A DNA stretch of 57,432 nt, taken from a virus. The position numbers and the translations under genes are program-made. The stretch covers positions 1-57,432 of the IMG/VR virus record IMGVR_UViG_3300035703_000111, one strand, 5' to 3'. Below are positions 11,819 to 18,649 of this stretch, piece after piece (within the stretch, counting starts at the first letter, position 1; each line of letters starts with the position of its first letter). The notes below the pieces were generated by a model. The model was not told the DNA's origin and did not search any database. It was given only the letters and a program-made list of their open reading frames with translations.

Positions 11819-12724
11819 ATGTCTGGTATTGTTTCACCAAAAAGACTTTCTGTTGATTTTATAAAATCTAGACTTTTAAATGTTGCTCAAACATCATTGT
11901 ATCAATTAACCATTGGTACAAAGGGACCACTGCAGACATTTTTAAATTCAGATTATAGACTTTCTAAGAACTATAATGGAGTTATAGAAAATATTCAACT
12001 TTTATGTGCCGAAGCATCTCTACCCGGATCATCATTGGCAACTCATGAAGTAACTAATGACTATCATGGTGTGACAGAAAAAATGGCATATAGAAGAATA
12101 TATGATGATTCTATTGATTTGACTTTCTATGTTGATAGATCTTATGATGTTATTGAGTTTTTTGATGGATGGATGAATTATATTGTTGGAGAAGGTAGTA
12201 GAACAGAATCTCCAAGATCTTTATATAAGAATAGATATAAAAATTATAGAATGTTATATCCATCAGAATATACTTCTACTTTATATCTTACGAAGTTTGA
12301 AAAAGATCATCATACTTTCAATTCCACTGCTAGAAAGGATAGTATGACATATACTTTTATTGAGGCATTTCCTACTAATATTGTTTCTATGCCAGTTTCA
12401 TATGAAGCAAGTAATATATTAAAGTGTACGGTTTCTTTTTCCTACATTAGATATGTTAGAGAGAGAATTGTTTCTTCAATTCCTTCCAGTGTACAAAATA
12501 GTAGAAATCCTGGAAATCCTGAAGCTAAAGTAGCAAATCAATTTGGTCCAGCATTTAATGGAGATCCATATACAATCAATCAAAATATTCCTGGCGCTTT
12601 TTCTGGTAATGTTTTGGAAGGTGATGAACTTTTCAATTCTAGACCTTCTAGAGTAGAAGAAGGTCTTCCATATGTCGGAAGATTCGAGGGTCAGGGTCCA
12701 ATAGCACCATTTTCTGGTATCTAA
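11819..12724 (+). CDS. gp54: Baseplate tail tube initiator gp54
   Basis: A 301-aa homologue of T4 gp54 (320 aa), which sits between baseplate hub and tail tube and has a tube-protein-like fold. Visible: an N-terminal helix/strand unit (VDFIKSRLLNVAQTSLYQLTI), LLCAEASLPGSSLATHE, the tube-like strand IDLTFYVDRSYDVIEFFDGW, and TYTFIEAFPTNIVSMPVSYE followed by CTVSFSYIRY. The C-terminal ~80 residues are Gly/Pro-rich and extend the fold. It is transcribed away from gp48, unlike in T4 where 48 and 54 are adjacent and co-directional. Confidence 0.88.
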   Translation: MSGIVSPKRLSVDFIKSRLLNVAQTSLYQLTIGTKGPLQTFLNSDYRLSKNYNGVIENIQLLCAEASLPGSSLATHEVTNDYHGVTEKMAYRRIYDDSIDLTFYVDRSYDVIEFFDGWMNYIVGEGSRTESPRSLYKNRYKNYRMLYPSEYTSTLYLTKFEKDHHTFNSTARKDSMTYTFIEAFPTNIVSMPVSYEASNILKCTVSFSYIRYVRERIVSSIPSSVQNSRNPGNPEAKVANQFGPAFNGDPYTINQNIPGAFSGNVLEGDELFNSRPSRVEEGLPYVGRFEGQGPIAPFSGI

Positions 12725-12759: not shown

Positions 12760-13479
12760 ATGCCTTTACCTACAATTGCAACACCAACTTATGAACTTGA
12801 GTTGCCTTCCACAGAACAAAAAATTAAGTATAGGCCTTTTCTTGTAAAGGAAGAAAAACTTCTTTTGTTAGCATTAGAGACAGAAGATACAAAAGAAATT
12901 ACAAACACAATAAAGCAGGTATTAAAAAATTGCGTTCAAGGAAGAGGAATAAAAATTGAAAGTCTACCGACATTTGACATAGAATATCTTTTCTTAAATA
13001 TCCGAGGAAAATCTGTTGGTGAAAGTGTAGAAGTAAATCTTATCGCACCGGATGATAGAGAAACATCGGTTTCTGTTGTTATTAATCTGGATGATATTAA
13101 AGTTAAAAAATCTCCAGACCATAAAAAGCAAATCAAACTTGATGATAGTTTGGTGATGGAAATGAAATATCCGTCACTAGACCAATTTATCAAGAGCAAT
13201 TTTGACTTTTCTCAGGATGGAAATATTGATCAATCATTTGAACTCATAGCATCCTGTATTGACAAGATTTACAATGAAGAAGAAGTTTGGTCAGCTTCTG
13301 ATGTTACTAAAAAAGAATTGATGGAATTTCTAGAACAAATGAATAGCATTCAATTTAAACAAATTGAGAAATTCTTTGAAACAATGCCAAAACTTTCTCA
13401 TGAAGTAACATTTACAAATCCTAAAACTGGAATAGAGAGTACTGTGCTTCTAGAAGGGTTATCAAGTTTTTTCAGTTAA
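12760..13479 (+). CDS. gp26: Baseplate hub protein gp26 (probable tail assembly chaperone)
   Basis: A 239-aa homologue of T4 gp26 (208 aa). Signature: a Pro/Thr-rich start, then KIKYRPFLVKEEKLLLLALE, FDIEYLFLNIRGKSVGESV and a central LDDSLVMEMKYPSLDQF. It is made at the baseplate hub stage of assembly. The last codons contain a T-TTT-TTC heptamer in the zero frame, and a -1 shift there would fuse gp26 to the next small ORF. This is the arrangement of G/GT tail assembly chaperones in other tailed phages; the chaperone role is inference. Confidence 0.85.
   Translation: MPLPTIATPTYELELPSTEQKIKYRPFLVKEEKLLLLALETEDTKEITNTIKQVLKNCVQGRGIKIESLPTFDIEYLFLNIRGKSVGESVEVNLIAPDDRETSVSVVINLDDIKVKKSPDHKKQIKLDDSLVMEMKYPSLDQFIKSNFDFSQDGNIDQSFELIASCIDKIYNEEEVWSASDVTKKELMEFLEQMNSIQFKQIEKFFETMPKLSHEVTFTNPKTGIESTVLLEGLSSFFS
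13467..13473 (+). promoter_or_regulatory. Candidate -1 ribosomal frameshift site
   Basis: The heptamer TTTTTTC is positioned as T-TTT-TTC with respect to the gp26 frame (codons AGT TTT TTC AGT TAA), the canonical X-XXY-YYZ form. After a -1 slip, reading continues CAG TTA ATG and enters the downstream ORF in frame, giving a 299-aa fusion instead of the 239-aa gp26. The zero-frame stop is only two codons downstream. Confidence 0.6.
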
Positions 13480-13658
13480 TGATGGTTCACATGGACTTGG
13501 AGAACTACTACAAGATAAATTTTGCCCTCATGCAGTTCCATAAATATTCATTAACAGAGATTGAAAATATGATGCCTTGGGAGCGTGACATTTATGTTGG
13601 ATTACTCCAAAATCATCTGGAAGAAGAAAAACTAAGACAACAACAAAATGGCGGTTGA
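13479..13658 (+). CDS. Small ORF after gp26 (gp51-like / chaperone T-domain)
   Basis: A 59-aa protein whose ATG overlaps the gp26 stop (TAATG). Core: DLENYYKINFALMQFHKYSL, then MMPWERDIYVGLLQNHLEEE. The pattern of an aromatic/His helix followed by a short acidic helix resembles the C-terminal T part of frameshifted tail assembly chaperones. Cyanophage annotations often call the ORF here gp51, but it is far shorter than T4 gp51. It can be made alone from ATG 13479 or as a -1 extension of gp26. Its end overlaps the next gene by 11 bases. Confidence 0.72.
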   Translation: MMVHMDLENYYKINFALMQFHKYSLTEIENMMPWERDIYVGLLQNHLEEEKLRQQQNGG

Positions 13659-16056
13659 AGCACCATCCGGAATAGTAAAATGGTATAATTCTCCAGTTGG
13701 CGAGAGGACTTGGAATAATTTTAGAGCTCAATTGACTGGTAAGGATTATCCTGGTGCTTCTAGAAAAACTTCATATGTTAAATTGACTGATAAGGAAGCA
13801 GATGAAGTAATAGAAAATATAAAAAATGATCCAGAGGGAGTTCCTTTTTTCGATGAAGCAAATGCACCAGATAAAGCCGAAGAATATCAAAGATGGTTAG
13901 TCTCAAGATATCTTACCAAACCTAGAGAAAACACATTTGATAATACTCAAAAAGAATCATCAGCACCCGAACCAACATCTTCGGCATTAGTTCCCGTAAG
14001 GGTTAACAATGACAACTTAGTGGAAGAAAAGATTGATGAAAGAATTCTTGCAATCTTAGGAATAGGAGATGTTTTTGATTTAACTTATGAAGAGTATATT
14101 TCTTTACTTAAAGAGAAATCAATAGAGTATCGAATGTCCGGTGCTGATCTTCCTACTGAAAGTGTTGAATTAATAACCGAAGAATTTAAAAGAGTAAAGG
14201 GAAAATCTGGAAAATTTAAAGTTAAATCAGAAAAAATAAATATTGCAAAAGTTATTGATAAAAGAACTGGGTATTCTGGTAAAGATACTTTAGATCCTAA
14301 AAAACTTTTACCTCCAGGTAAAGAAGACGAAGAGGAAAAAAGTTTCCAAAAAGACATATTAAATTTTTTAAAGAATGATCTTCTCGATACCTTAAAATCT
14401 ATTAATTCTGTCGTAGTTGATATTCTCGATATTTTAAAAGAACAGAGAGAAATAGATAAGAAAAAGACGGAACAAGAAAGAAGAACTGCAGAAATTGAAA
14501 AGAAAAAATCAAGTGAGGCAAAATTAGAAAGACAAAATAATAAAGAAGGTACTGATGCTGTAAATAAAATCACAAAACCATTTACTAGTTTTTTCGATAC
14601 AATTAAAAACTTTTTGATGAATGTTTTATTAGGATCTGCTATAAACTTTTTATTATCAGTCATTAAAGATCCTAGTATTATTCTTACACCGTTGAAAAAT
14701 TTTGCCAATATGATTATTGGTTTTTTAAATGGTATTATTAGTTTCTTGTGGAATTTAGTTGTGTCGCCAATTAACTTTGTAATCGCCGGAATTAATAATG
14801 GTATTCAAGGCCTCATTAATCAAATTAATAATGCAATACGATTGATACCTGGAACAAGACCTATTGTTGGTCCGCAGATTCCAACTATTCCAGGACCTCC
14901 ACAGATACCAACATTTTCAGTTCAGCAACAAGAAGGTGGTGGAGAAACAATTAACGTTGGTGATATCTCATTAATGAGTGGTGGTGGAAAAACAATTAAC
15001 GTTGGTGATATCTCATTAATGAGTGGTGGTGGAAAAACAATTAACGTTGGTGATATCTCATTAATGAGTGGTGGTGGAGTTGATAAGAAAACAGGTGTTA
15101 AGGTATCTGGTTTTGGAAAAGATACTCAGCTAACTGCATTATCTCCAGGTGAGGTTGTATTCAGTAATCCTGCAGCGGATTTTTGGGGAAGAGATAATCT
15201 ACTTGCAATGAATGCCATGGGTGGTGGAACTAATAAACCTAAATTTGGTAGTCTTGGTATTCAAACAATGCAAGGTGGTGGTGTGGCTGGAGGAGGAGGT
15301 AGAATAATTTTTGGTGCAGGACACGCTGCAAGAACAAAAGGTAGTTCTGTAGGAACTGATAATTTACCCGTTCAAGGAACTACTGATCCTAGAACAGGAG
15401 TGAGTGAATCTAGAGCGATGATGCATTTGATAGAATCGATGCAAAGAATAGTGTCTTCAAATCCACAGATTTATTCTAATATTGGTTTTCAAAATATTAC
15501 AGAAACAAAGGGTCTTCGTGGAATGAGATCAACAACAAAGCAAATTGAAGGCAGTGGAAATCAGTTTGTAGAGTTGCATTTAGATCAATTTGGTGGTGGA
15601 GGTAGGTCTGGTGTTATTTCTAGAAATAGAACATCTGTTGATAATTCTCTTGGAGCACTATTTGGATTTTTTCCAAAGAATTTTAAACAAGGTGATCTTG
15701 CTATTCCTGATGAAGGAGGAACAATTGTTGAACTTTCTGCAGTTGATGATCCAAAACTTCGCCCATTTTTGAATGAAGTCAAGCAAAATAAATATGGACC
15801 AGCAACACAAGAACTCGCAACTAAATTATTAACTGCTGTTGTTGGTAAGAATATTCCAAAAGCACCAAATCTTCCTCCACCACCACCATCTCAACCGAGA
15901 GTTACTATGTTACCTGTTCCTGTAAATTCTGGAGGTGGTCAAGTTCCATCAAGTTCTTCTTCTGCAAATCAAGCAGAAGTTCCATCTTTTTCTGCAGAAG
16001 ATCCAAAGAATATGAGTACTTTGGTAGTCAAAGCAATTTACAACATGGTAGGATAG
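13648..16056 (+). CDS. Tape-measure-like baseplate hub/tail protein (802 aa)
   Basis: Probable tail length or hub protein in the position of the T4 gene 28/29 region. The N-terminal ~100 residues are soluble (APSGIVKWYNSPVGERTW). A coiled coil follows (KEQREIDKKKTEQERRTAEI, residues ~268-300), then a hydrophobic helical region (~314-400; FFDTIKNFLMNVLLGSAINF, IIGFLNGIISFLWNLVVSPI) and a Gly-rich segment with three 15-residue repeats (~430-474). The C-terminus has VSGFGKDTQLTALSPGEVVF, a motif common in tape-measure-like proteins, and a Pro-rich end. The hydrophobic module NFxMNVLxGSxxNxL recurs in the next gene. The T4 gp29 equivalence is inference. Confidence 0.7.
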   Translation: MAVEAPSGIVKWYNSPVGERTWNNFRAQLTGKDYPGASRKTSYVKLTDKEADEVIENIKNDPEGVPFFDEANAPDKAEEYQRWLVSRYLTKPRENTFDNTQKESSAPEPTSSALVPVRVNNDNLVEEKIDERILAILGIGDVFDLTYEEYISLLKEKSIEYRMSGADLPTESVELITEEFKRVKGKSGKFKVKSEKINIAKVIDKRTGYSGKDTLDPKKLLPPGKEDEEEKSFQKDILNFLKNDLLDTLKSINSVVVDILDILKEQREIDKKKTEQERRTAEIEKKKSSEAKLERQNNKEGTDAVNKITKPFTSFFDTIKNFLMNVLLGSAINFLLSVIKDPSIILTPLKNFANMIIGFLNGIISFLWNLVVSPINFVIAGINNGIQGLINQINNAIRLIPGTRPIVGPQIPTIPGPPQIPTFSVQQQEGGGETINVGDISLMSGGGKTINVGDISLMSGGGKTINVGDISLMSGGGVDKKTGVKVSGFGKDTQLTALSPGEVVFSNPAADFWGRDNLLAMNAMGGGTNKPKFGSLGIQTMQGGGVAGGGGRIIFGAGHAARTKGSSVGTDNLPVQGTTDPRTGVSESRAMMHLIESMQRIVSSNPQIYSNIGFQNITETKGLRGMRSTTKQIEGSGNQFVELHLDQFGGGGRSGVISRNRTSVDNSLGALFGFFPKNFKQGDLAIPDEGGTIVELSAVDDPKLRPFLNEVKQNKYGPATQELATKLLTAVVGKNIPKAPNLPPPPPSQPRVTMLPVPVNSGGGQVPSSSSSANQAEVPSFSAEDPKNMSTLVVKAIYNMVG
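14935..15069 (+). repeat. Three tandem 45-bp repeats in the tape-measure-like gene
   Basis: Units at 14935, 14980 and 15025 encode GGGKTINVGDISLMS, differing only at one base (Glu in unit 1, Lys in 2 and 3). The near identity at DNA level points to recent duplication; the reading frame is kept. Confidence 0.92.
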
Positions 16057-16060
16057 AATC

Positions 16061-18649
16061 ATGGTACTACCACTTATCGCAGGTATTGGAAGTAAACTCT
16101 TATCCTCAGGAAAAACTGAAGATAAAGATATTAATGTATCTAAAAAGAAAATTAAAACGGAAAAATTATTTGATAAGAAAGGAGATAGTAGTGCCCTTGT
16201 AAAAACTGAAAAATCTTCAATACAATTAAGGCCTTCTAGTTCCTTAGTAAAATACAACTTTAAAAATTCTAAAGATAAAAGTTTAGATCTGACTTCAGAA
16301 GATAATAAAAATGTAGTTGGCGATGAACTTCAAAGCGTCATTGATGAAGTTAAAAAACTTAGAACTAACTTAGTTAAAGTTAGAGGATTGCTTGCGGAAA
16401 AGAAAAATTTTGATCTGAGTAAACTTGTTCAAAACAGAAAACTTCTCCAGTTACAAAAGGCAAAGAAAAGAGAAACTGATTTAGAAAAAAGAAAATCAAA
16501 GTTAAATATTGGAAAAATAGAAATTCCAAAACCAAAAATCAGTTTTCTTGAAACCATTCAAAACTTTTTCATGAATGTTTTAATTGGAAGTTTGTTAAAT
16601 CTTCTGATTGCTAATAGGAATATTATTTTTAAAGCATTTGATGATATTTCTAAAGGACTTACGAATATATTTGATGTAATAAGATATTCTATTATTTCTT
16701 TGTCCACAACTATGCCTAAACTTGTGAAGTCAGTTGCAAGTTTTGGTAAAAAGATTTTTGCTGGCCCTGCAAAGTTAACGGCAAATCTTTTAAAGAAACT
16801 AGGTGGTAGTATTAAAAATTTATTAGTAAAAACTGGTAAAGCACTTGGAAATTTTGTTTCGGGAACATTCAAAAATTTAAGAAATCTTGCTGGTGGCACA
16901 GGAACTGCTACTACCAGAGCGTCTGCGGTACAGCAAAGAGGATTATCTAAAGGTGCTGGAACTAAATCTCAACTTAGACAACTTCCAAAGCCAGGAATTC
17001 CAAAACCAACTTCTGGAACAACATTAAATAATGCTCAAAAATTATTTACATCTGGTGGATTTAAGCACTTTAAAAAAGTCTCTACGGTCTTTAAGAAGGT
17101 TCCTTTCATTGGTGCTTTGATTGGCATTGGCATTGACTTGGCAATGGGCGAAAGATTAGACAATGCCATTGCAGGCGCTGCTGGAGCATCTCTTGGAGCA
17201 GCGATTGGTGGAGCGATTGGAACAGCAGTTCTTCCAATACCTTTTGTTGGTACATTTCTTGGTGGTACAATTGGAGCTGCTATTGGTGATTGGGCTGGAA
17301 AAGAAATCTATAAAAAATTAAGTGGTCAGATAACACAAATTAACCCTCCTCCAGAACCAACTACAACTCCAGGACAGACACCAACTCCGTCACCTGGTAC
17401 AACTCCACTTTCACCTGGTTTTATGGGAAGTGGAGCTCCTGGTCAACTCTATACATCTAATGCATCTGTCACTTGGTATAATCCTGGTTTAGGTGGAATA
17501 AATTCTGGTACAGGAAAACCAGATCCAAATGCAAGAACATCAACTGGAGAACCTTATCAAGCTTCTGCTTATACTGCAGCAGCATTTCCTCCATTTTTGA
17601 GTTCTCTTCCTCTTAGTATGACAACAAGAACTCCAAATAATCCCAGCGGAAGAACTCTTGCTAGAGGCCAACAATTTAATGTTCTGGTTACAAACAAGAA
17701 AACAGGAAAGTCTGCTATTCTTAGAGTTAATGATGTCGGTAGTGGAGTAGGTCCTGCATCTAAACAAACTAAGTGGCTTGATTTTAGTGTTGCTGCTAGA
17801 GATTATCTGGGAACTGGTTCTGGATTTGAGATAAGGATGGCCCCACCTGGATCAAAACCAGGTCCTTTAAATGCTAGTGGTGTCCAACAAATACAAAAAA
17901 TGGGAGCAGCTGCAAATGCCAACGCCACTTCAAGTTATACTGTAGCTGGAATTACTTACGATACTGCTACGGGAAGACCTATAGATTTTCCCGGTCAAAG
18001 AACTTCAGTACCATTATTAAAACAATCTCAGTTACCAGCACTACCTCCTACAGGAACCTACAGTGGCCAACATTATGGAGCTTCTAGAAAAGGTGGTAGA
18101 AAACATGCTGGAGTTGATTTTGATATTAGTGGAAACGAAAAATTTTACTCTAGGATTGGTGGAGTTGTAACTAAAGTTGGACATGATCCTGGTGGATATG
18201 GAAATTATGTTGATATCTATAATGCAGATATTGGTAAAACGGAGAGAATTGCTGAAGGTAAGAGAGTTCTTGTTAAGAAAGGAGATACTATTAATCCTGG
18301 TCAAGCAGTAGTTCAAGGTGAAACTGAGACAGGAGTTATACATTATGAAATAAGACAAGGTGGTGGATATGGATTTTCTGGCACTGAGGATCCAACAAAA
18401 TTTTTGGCTTCTTTGGATCGAGGTGGTGGAGTTCGTTCCACTCAAGCACAAGCACTCAGACAACAAGCATCGTATGAACAAAGAGGTGGAAATATAGTTA
18501 TTCCTACTCCAATTGTTAGTGCGCCTGCACCGCTGCCATCACCCATGGCAGGTGCGGGTGGATTACTGCCAATAGGAATGAATAAAAAAGATGCATTAAA
18601 TAGTTATTATCAAGCTCAATTGATTGGATTCCTGTATAAACAAGGTTAA
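16061..18649 (+). CDS. Hub/tape-measure-like protein with RlpA-like and M23-like domains
   Basis: 862 aa. The N-terminal ~170 residues are Lys-rich coiled coil, followed by FLETIQNFFMNVLIGSLLNL, shared with the preceding gene. Residues ~345-420 hold a Gly/Ala-rich hydrophobic segment. Residues ~465-605 form an RlpA-like double-psi barrel (ASVTWYNPG, STGEPYQASAYTAAA, LRVNDVGSG), with Glu ~494 and Asp558 in the positions of RlpA catalytic acids. Residues ~670-785 resemble an M23/LytM endopeptidase: HAGVD (His682, Asp686) and VIHYEI (His761) keep the zinc ligands, but both usual catalytic His are missing. Probably a peptidoglycan-remodelling tail component replacing the T4 gp5 lysozyme. Confidence 0.75.
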   Translation: MVLPLIAGIGSKLLSSGKTEDKDINVSKKKIKTEKLFDKKGDSSALVKTEKSSIQLRPSSSLVKYNFKNSKDKSLDLTSEDNKNVVGDELQSVIDEVKKLRTNLVKVRGLLAEKKNFDLSKLVQNRKLLQLQKAKKRETDLEKRKSKLNIGKIEIPKPKISFLETIQNFFMNVLIGSLLNLLIANRNIIFKAFDDISKGLTNIFDVIRYSIISLSTTMPKLVKSVASFGKKIFAGPAKLTANLLKKLGGSIKNLLVKTGKALGNFVSGTFKNLRNLAGGTGTATTRASAVQQRGLSKGAGTKSQLRQLPKPGIPKPTSGTTLNNAQKLFTSGGFKHFKKVSTVFKKVPFIGALIGIGIDLAMGERLDNAIAGAAGASLGAAIGGAIGTAVLPIPFVGTFLGGTIGAAIGDWAGKEIYKKLSGQITQINPPPEPTTTPGQTPTPSPGTTPLSPGFMGSGAPGQLYTSNASVTWYNPGLGGINSGTGKPDPNARTSTGEPYQASAYTAAAFPPFLSSLPLSMTTRTPNNPSGRTLARGQQFNVLVTNKKTGKSAILRVNDVGSGVGPASKQTKWLDFSVAARDYLGTGSGFEIRMAPPGSKPGPLNASGVQQIQKMGAAANANATSSYTVAGITYDTATGRPIDFPGQRTSVPLLKQSQLPALPPTGTYSGQHYGASRKGGRKHAGVDFDISGNEKFYSRIGGVVTKVGHDPGGYGNYVDIYNADIGKTERIAEGKRVLVKKGDTINPGQAVVQGETETGVIHYEIRQGGGYGFSGTEDPTKFLASLDRGGGVRSTQAQALRQQASYEQRGGNIVIPTPIVSAPAPLPSPMAGAGGLLPIGMNKKDALNSYYQAQLIGFLYKQG

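Follow-up and report, generated by a model that had tools for sequence, protein, structure and literature searches.

The window analysed here, a 57,432-nucleotide stretch of viral DNA, very probably contains a programmed -1 ribosomal frameshift in the tail-assembly-chaperone gene of a T4-like cyanophage, as predicted from its sequence and that of its relatives. The gp26 ORF ends in the zero frame with GAA GGG TTA TCA AGT TTT TTC AGT TAA. Here, the slippery heptamer T_TTT_TTC lies in the gp26 frame in the canonical X_XXY_YYZ phase, with one sense codon between it and the stop (Table 1). After a -1 slip the reading becomes TTT TTT CAG TTA ATG ATG GTT... and continues to a stop at 13656-13658. 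The zero-frame product comprises 239 aa and the fusion 238 + 2 + 59 = 299 aa. A first-pass annotation had put forward a candidate frameshift joining gp26 to this 59-aa ORF. The features it named, a heptamer in the correct frame near the gp26 stop, a -1 frame entering the 59-aa ORF and a 239/299-aa product pair, are all seen in the window, and the proposal is borne out by this frame relation together with a near-invariant heptamer in related phages. TTTTTTC alone is frequent in the AT-rich window (43 copies, both strands), and of the 86 stop-to-stop frames that span 100 codons or more, three have an in-frame XXXYYYZ within their last 10 codons. The two frames other than gp26 extend by 5 codons only in one case and lie antisense inside a long gene in the other. 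Among the real genes of the window, gp26 is thus the only one in which a heptamer lies in frame no more than 10 codons from the stop and opens onto a long -1 extension. The decisive argument for the gp26 frameshift is conservation, not rarity within a single sequence.

Table 1. Features of the chaperone locus and its neighbours, in window coordinates.
Feature	Position	Strand	Remarks
Tail tube protein gene	11819..12724	+	directly 5' of gp26; phrog_45 E 8.2e-41, PF23849 E 1.6e-17
gp26, short chaperone form (G part), 239 aa	12760..13479	+	PF12322 E 1.9e-74; phrog_150 E 3.6e-79
SD-like GAAGGG, proposed upstream stimulator	13453..13458	+	8 nt before heptamer; GGAGGG in many relatives
Slippery heptamer T_TTT_TTC	13467-13473	+	in gp26 frame
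-1-frame extension (QL + 59 aa, 'gp51'), T part	13473..13658	+	joined to gp26 codons 1-238, predicted 299-aa fusion
gp26 stop TAA overlapping first possible T start (TAATGATG)	13477..13484	+	alternative termination-reinitiation route
Weak possible hairpin (13483-13488 with 13502-13507)	13483..13507	+	site of conserved hairpin in sister clades
802-aa gene, structural or tape-measure-like	13648..16056	+	overlaps T-part end; phrog_1272 tape measure E 1.6e-3
862-aa tape-measure-like protein, M23 peptidase domain	16061..18649	+	phrog_167 E 5.1e-11, phrog_794 E 3.9e-7, PF01551 E 2.5e-7

Profile matches assign the two ORFs to the G and T parts of a tail-assembly chaperone of the T4 gp26/gp51 family. 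gp26 matches PF12322, a T4 base plate family, and its match to phrog_150 ('baseplate hub') spans profile positions 5-232 of 282. The 59-aa ORF matches phrog_634, 'baseplate hub assembly catalyst' (gp51), with an E value of 3.4e-29, and in addition positions 239-281 of phrog_150, so some known phrog_150 members hold both parts in one chain. In T4 itself, gp26 (208 aa) is matched by the G part alone and gp51 (249 aa) by both G and T parts. With PF12322 and phrog_150/phrog_634 applied to both phages, the G part is homologous to T4 gp26 and the T part to the C-terminus of T4 gp51. In the -1 frame, the T part shows the codon-position diversity expected of coding DNA. The chaperone genes lie between the tail tube gene, directly upstream, and a tape-measure-like gene, the second one downstream, which is the G/GT gene order. 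The immediate neighbour, earlier called tape-measure-like, does show a weak match of this kind (E 1.6e-3), but the gene after it fits the description better (E 5e-11). The 802-aa product also matches further phage families of unknown function, and it contains three mid-protein copies of the motif GGGxTINVGDISLMS.

We compared this junction across related phages. TTTTTTC is located one codon before the gp26 stop in 80 of 80 window-like IMG/VR loci and in P-TIM68 and P-SSM2, and gp51 is in the -1 frame at every window-like locus where it was found; at one locus the contig ends too early. A wider set covered Kyanoviridae, Straboviridae (KVP40-like, LPCS28, Ah1, EniLVp02), pf16 and phages of Stenotrophomonas, Rhizobium, Sinorhizobium and Acidovorax; scans with KVP40-like and with Ackermannviridae proteins gave two loci each. 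Of the 259 related loci in which the gp26 stop is readable, 254 have a poly-T-type heptamer, as T_TTT_TTC (219), T_TTT_TTT (33), T_TTT_TTG (1) or T_TTA_AAC overlapping T_TTT_TTA (1). Relatives lacking the heptamer, or with the ORFs in another relative frame, would have spoken against the earlier proposal; the heptamer is near-invariant, and the -1 frame is kept in every window-like locus where gp51 was found. The five loci without it are an in-frame fusion (L158), Vibrio K355 and three phiMAM1-like records. Rhizobium phage RHph_I1_18 (L096) carries overlapping T_TTT_TTA and T_TTA_AAC and has a zero-frame tail of about nine codons. In a marine group (L208, L223, L235, L238-L241 and similar loci) the zero frame continues for 8 codons past the heptamer, and several members contain a GCCTCT...AGAGGC hairpin.

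Wobble positions were counted in 130 non-redundant loci (85% identity or less). All 130 have T as the last base of the E-site codon, in Ser, Asp, Asn, Ala and Thr codons alike, and the P-site codon is TTT in 129/130. The A-site codon is TTC in 118/130, where TTC makes up 30% of Phe codons in the same genes. When the set was thinned to 61, 41, 30 and 24 representatives, the A-site bias stayed, with p from 4e-15 to 2e-3 in binomial tests that assume independent sequences, which these are not fully, and the E-site T was found in all; at no more than 60% nucleotide identity it is kept in 24/24 representatives. All three wobble positions of the heptamer are constrained and under synonymous selection.

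An SD-like element is found 8-10 nt upstream of the heptamer across relatives. Its codons show a synonymous bias, with GAG for Glu in 72/103 (vs 28%) and GGG for Gly in 35/129 (vs 6%), and the pairing energy of the stretch is -6.35, compared with -5.01 +/- 0.11 for synonymous resampling. Anti-SD pairing before the heptamer averages -6.19 kcal/mol, the strongest among the sites compared in the gene cluster. At the most distant thinning the GAG bias fades (p 0.06) and the GGG bias persists (p 0.006). The SD-like stretch ahead of the heptamer is under synonymous selection. The dnaX frameshift cassette also includes an upstream SD-like element, and an element of this type, about 10 nt before the heptamer, is seen in the population by codon bias and by anti-SD energy; the window has GAAGGG at this position.

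Downstream, 60-nt windows starting 5 nt past the heptamer have a mean z of -1.86 against shuffles, and windows elsewhere range from -0.35 to +0.07, except for an overlapping window at +8 (-1.34). By clade, the mean z is -3.5 in P-SSM2-like phages, -1.67 in window-like loci, -1.4 in other marine phages and between about -1 and 0 in all others. An 11-bp hairpin 5 nt downstream of the heptamer is seen in the P-SSM2-like sister clade, with 86% of cells paired vs 24-47% in slid versions. Covariation supports it (33 double-change cells vs 11.9 +/- 2.3, a number reached in 0 of 500 shuffles), most of these cells coming from one pair that occurs in three types (U-A, G-C, A-U). The stable downstream structure is a property of sister clades, covarying in the P-SSM2-like one. 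In the window the corresponding hairpin is weak, at -5.8 kcal/mol and z -1.2 in a 40-nt window, and in a 57-nt fold of this phage it is not the preferred structure (z +0.49). We therefore set aside a stable structure in the window itself, and a downstream stimulator is no more than possible for this contig; the weakness of the hairpin counts against the frameshift reading.

A second point against that reading is the TAATG at TAATGATG, where ribosomes ending gp26 at TAA could restart at the overlapping ATG, so that reinitiation could supply a free 59-aa gp51 from a separate gene, in addition to any fusion. An ATG follows the stop by 2-5 nt in most close relatives, and gp51 is often annotated as its own gene. 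Yet in 64 of 206 non-redundant loci none of the first 12 T-frame codons is ATG, GTG or TTG, and in 73/206 none is ATG. Where ATGs exist they lack a Shine-Dalgarno sequence: anti-SD pairing before T-part ATGs averages +0.12 kcal/mol, with 0/84 at or below -6, compared with -3.05 for gp26 starts, and upstream of the T-part ATG in the window there is none (0.0 kcal/mol). In the P-SSM2-like clade the ATG lies within the hairpin stem, and separate genes leave both the invariant heptamer and the fused T4 gp51 unexplained. Because many relatives have no start codon and no ribosome-binding site precedes the ATG, an independent start, which the first-pass annotation had offered as its alternative, is ruled out as the general mechanism, and we consider it very improbable as the account of this locus. 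TAATG is also found in Dickeya XF4 and K355. The T part is unannotated in S-CAM4, ACP17, LPCS28, phiMAM1, Salmonella S8 and Aeromonas Ah1 (L104, L097, L100, L102, L274, L277), and in most of these six it has no evident start codon. Transcriptional slippage, in which RNA polymerase would slip on the T run (7-8 T in some relatives) to give mixed mRNAs, some encoding the fusion, is more improbable still: a run of six T would be short for it, the final base is kept as C (118 vs 10 of 130) even though TTT is the more frequent Phe codon, which prevents a longer run, and the anti-SD element and hairpin act on ribosomes.

A third point against the frameshift reading comes from some distant relatives, Ackermannviridae and Vibrio K355 (L102, L274, L275, L276, L098), which hold a -1-frame T part without T_TTT_TTC. 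These loci have G_GTT_TTC, N_ATT_TTC or A_CTT_TTC in its place, the first of which is the T7 gene 10 heptamer. At L158:1501-2391, on a 236-kb cyanophage-type contig, gp26 and gp51 form one in-frame ORF of 297 aa and the heptamer is gone; this may be a natural fusion, or the T run may have been misassembled. A structural model of the L158 fusion has a pLDDT of 71.5 and is confident in the N-terminal ~120 residues and in most of the C-terminal T part. Its best two matches among 350,542 PDB chains are to the HK97 tail assembly chaperone 2ob9, at a non-significant level (E 1.1, probability 0.57). Neither gp26 nor the alignment, when used as query against the sequences of solved structures, gave a relevant hit. 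In a tree of the G part, one split (94/87) divides all proteins of the T4 type, separate and fused alike, from the remaining lineages, which have their T part in the -1 frame; the tree is unrooted and does not give the direction of change.

In the frameshift mechanism that we propose, most ribosomes would stop at 13477, which yields the 239-aa short form. In a minority of them, the Phe-tRNAs on TTT TTC would re-pair one base back on TTT TTT and translation would go on to the 299-aa long form, at a rate that may be raised by anti-SD contact just upstream and, in relatives, by the RNA hairpin just downstream. We infer that slippage takes place on the ribosomes of this phage's host, and likewise its rate. 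If lambda G/GT is a guide, the short form may coat the tape measure, and the minority long form may recruit tail-tube subunits via its T domain.

Frameshifting of the lambda G/GT type (Levin 1993, Xu 2004) is widely conserved, and T4 was listed as an exception in 2016 (PMC5009743). As in lambda, the shift in our phage would be -1, at a heptamer near the end of the short form, which is the normal product, and would add a small T extension, with the genes for tail tube and tape measure as neighbours; unlike in lambda, the heptamer is T_TTT_TTC and the proteins belong to the T4-type family. The first-pass annotation took the arrangement to be one not generally described for T4-like phages. However, papers citing Vladimirov, Gautam & Davidson 2022 credit that work with identifying the T4-like chaperone genes, with their poly-T slip sites (PMC12846349) and with the T4 solution of a short gene plus a fusion gene (PMC10885494). 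As described in these citing papers, T4 gp26/gp51 are of the same protein family as our pair and poly-T slip sites were already attributed to that 2022 work, and the gp26/gp51 frameshift therefore belongs to a known kind of system. T4 uses a short gene and a separate fused long gene, whereas the window phage has one gene for both forms. A GTTTTT frameshift in chaperone genes of Vandenendeviridae and Andersonviridae (PMC12846349) is likewise -1 at a T-rich site, but differs in motif and phage families. The -1 cassette of E. coli dnaX has an 11-bp hairpin after a 5-nt spacer (PMC8861025), a geometry equal to that of the P-SSM2-like clade. Our site shares with dnaX the X_XXY_YYZ heptamer and the upstream SD-like element, but has U_UUU_UUC rather than A_AAA_AAG, an unrelated gene and, in the window, a weak hairpin. 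It is possible, and we suggest it only tentatively, that in T4-like cyanophages a full dnaX-type three-part cassette (anti-SD element, U_UUU_UUC and an 11-bp hairpin at 5 nt) sets the chaperone ratio, with the hairpin tuned by clade, and that this has not been described before. What the present analysis adds is the extent of conservation, the dnaX-like stimulators and an account of the 'truncated gp51' of cyanophages.

Sullivan et al. 2010 reported that gp51 of cyanophages and vibriophages is without its first ~200 residues (PMC3037559). The missing 200 aa would be gp26, joined by frameshifting, and their absence is now expected. The annotation of many phage genomes is thereby corrected, including several that lack any annotation of the T part. 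The same protein pair also offers a clean comparison between one-gene frameshifting and the two-gene solution of T4.
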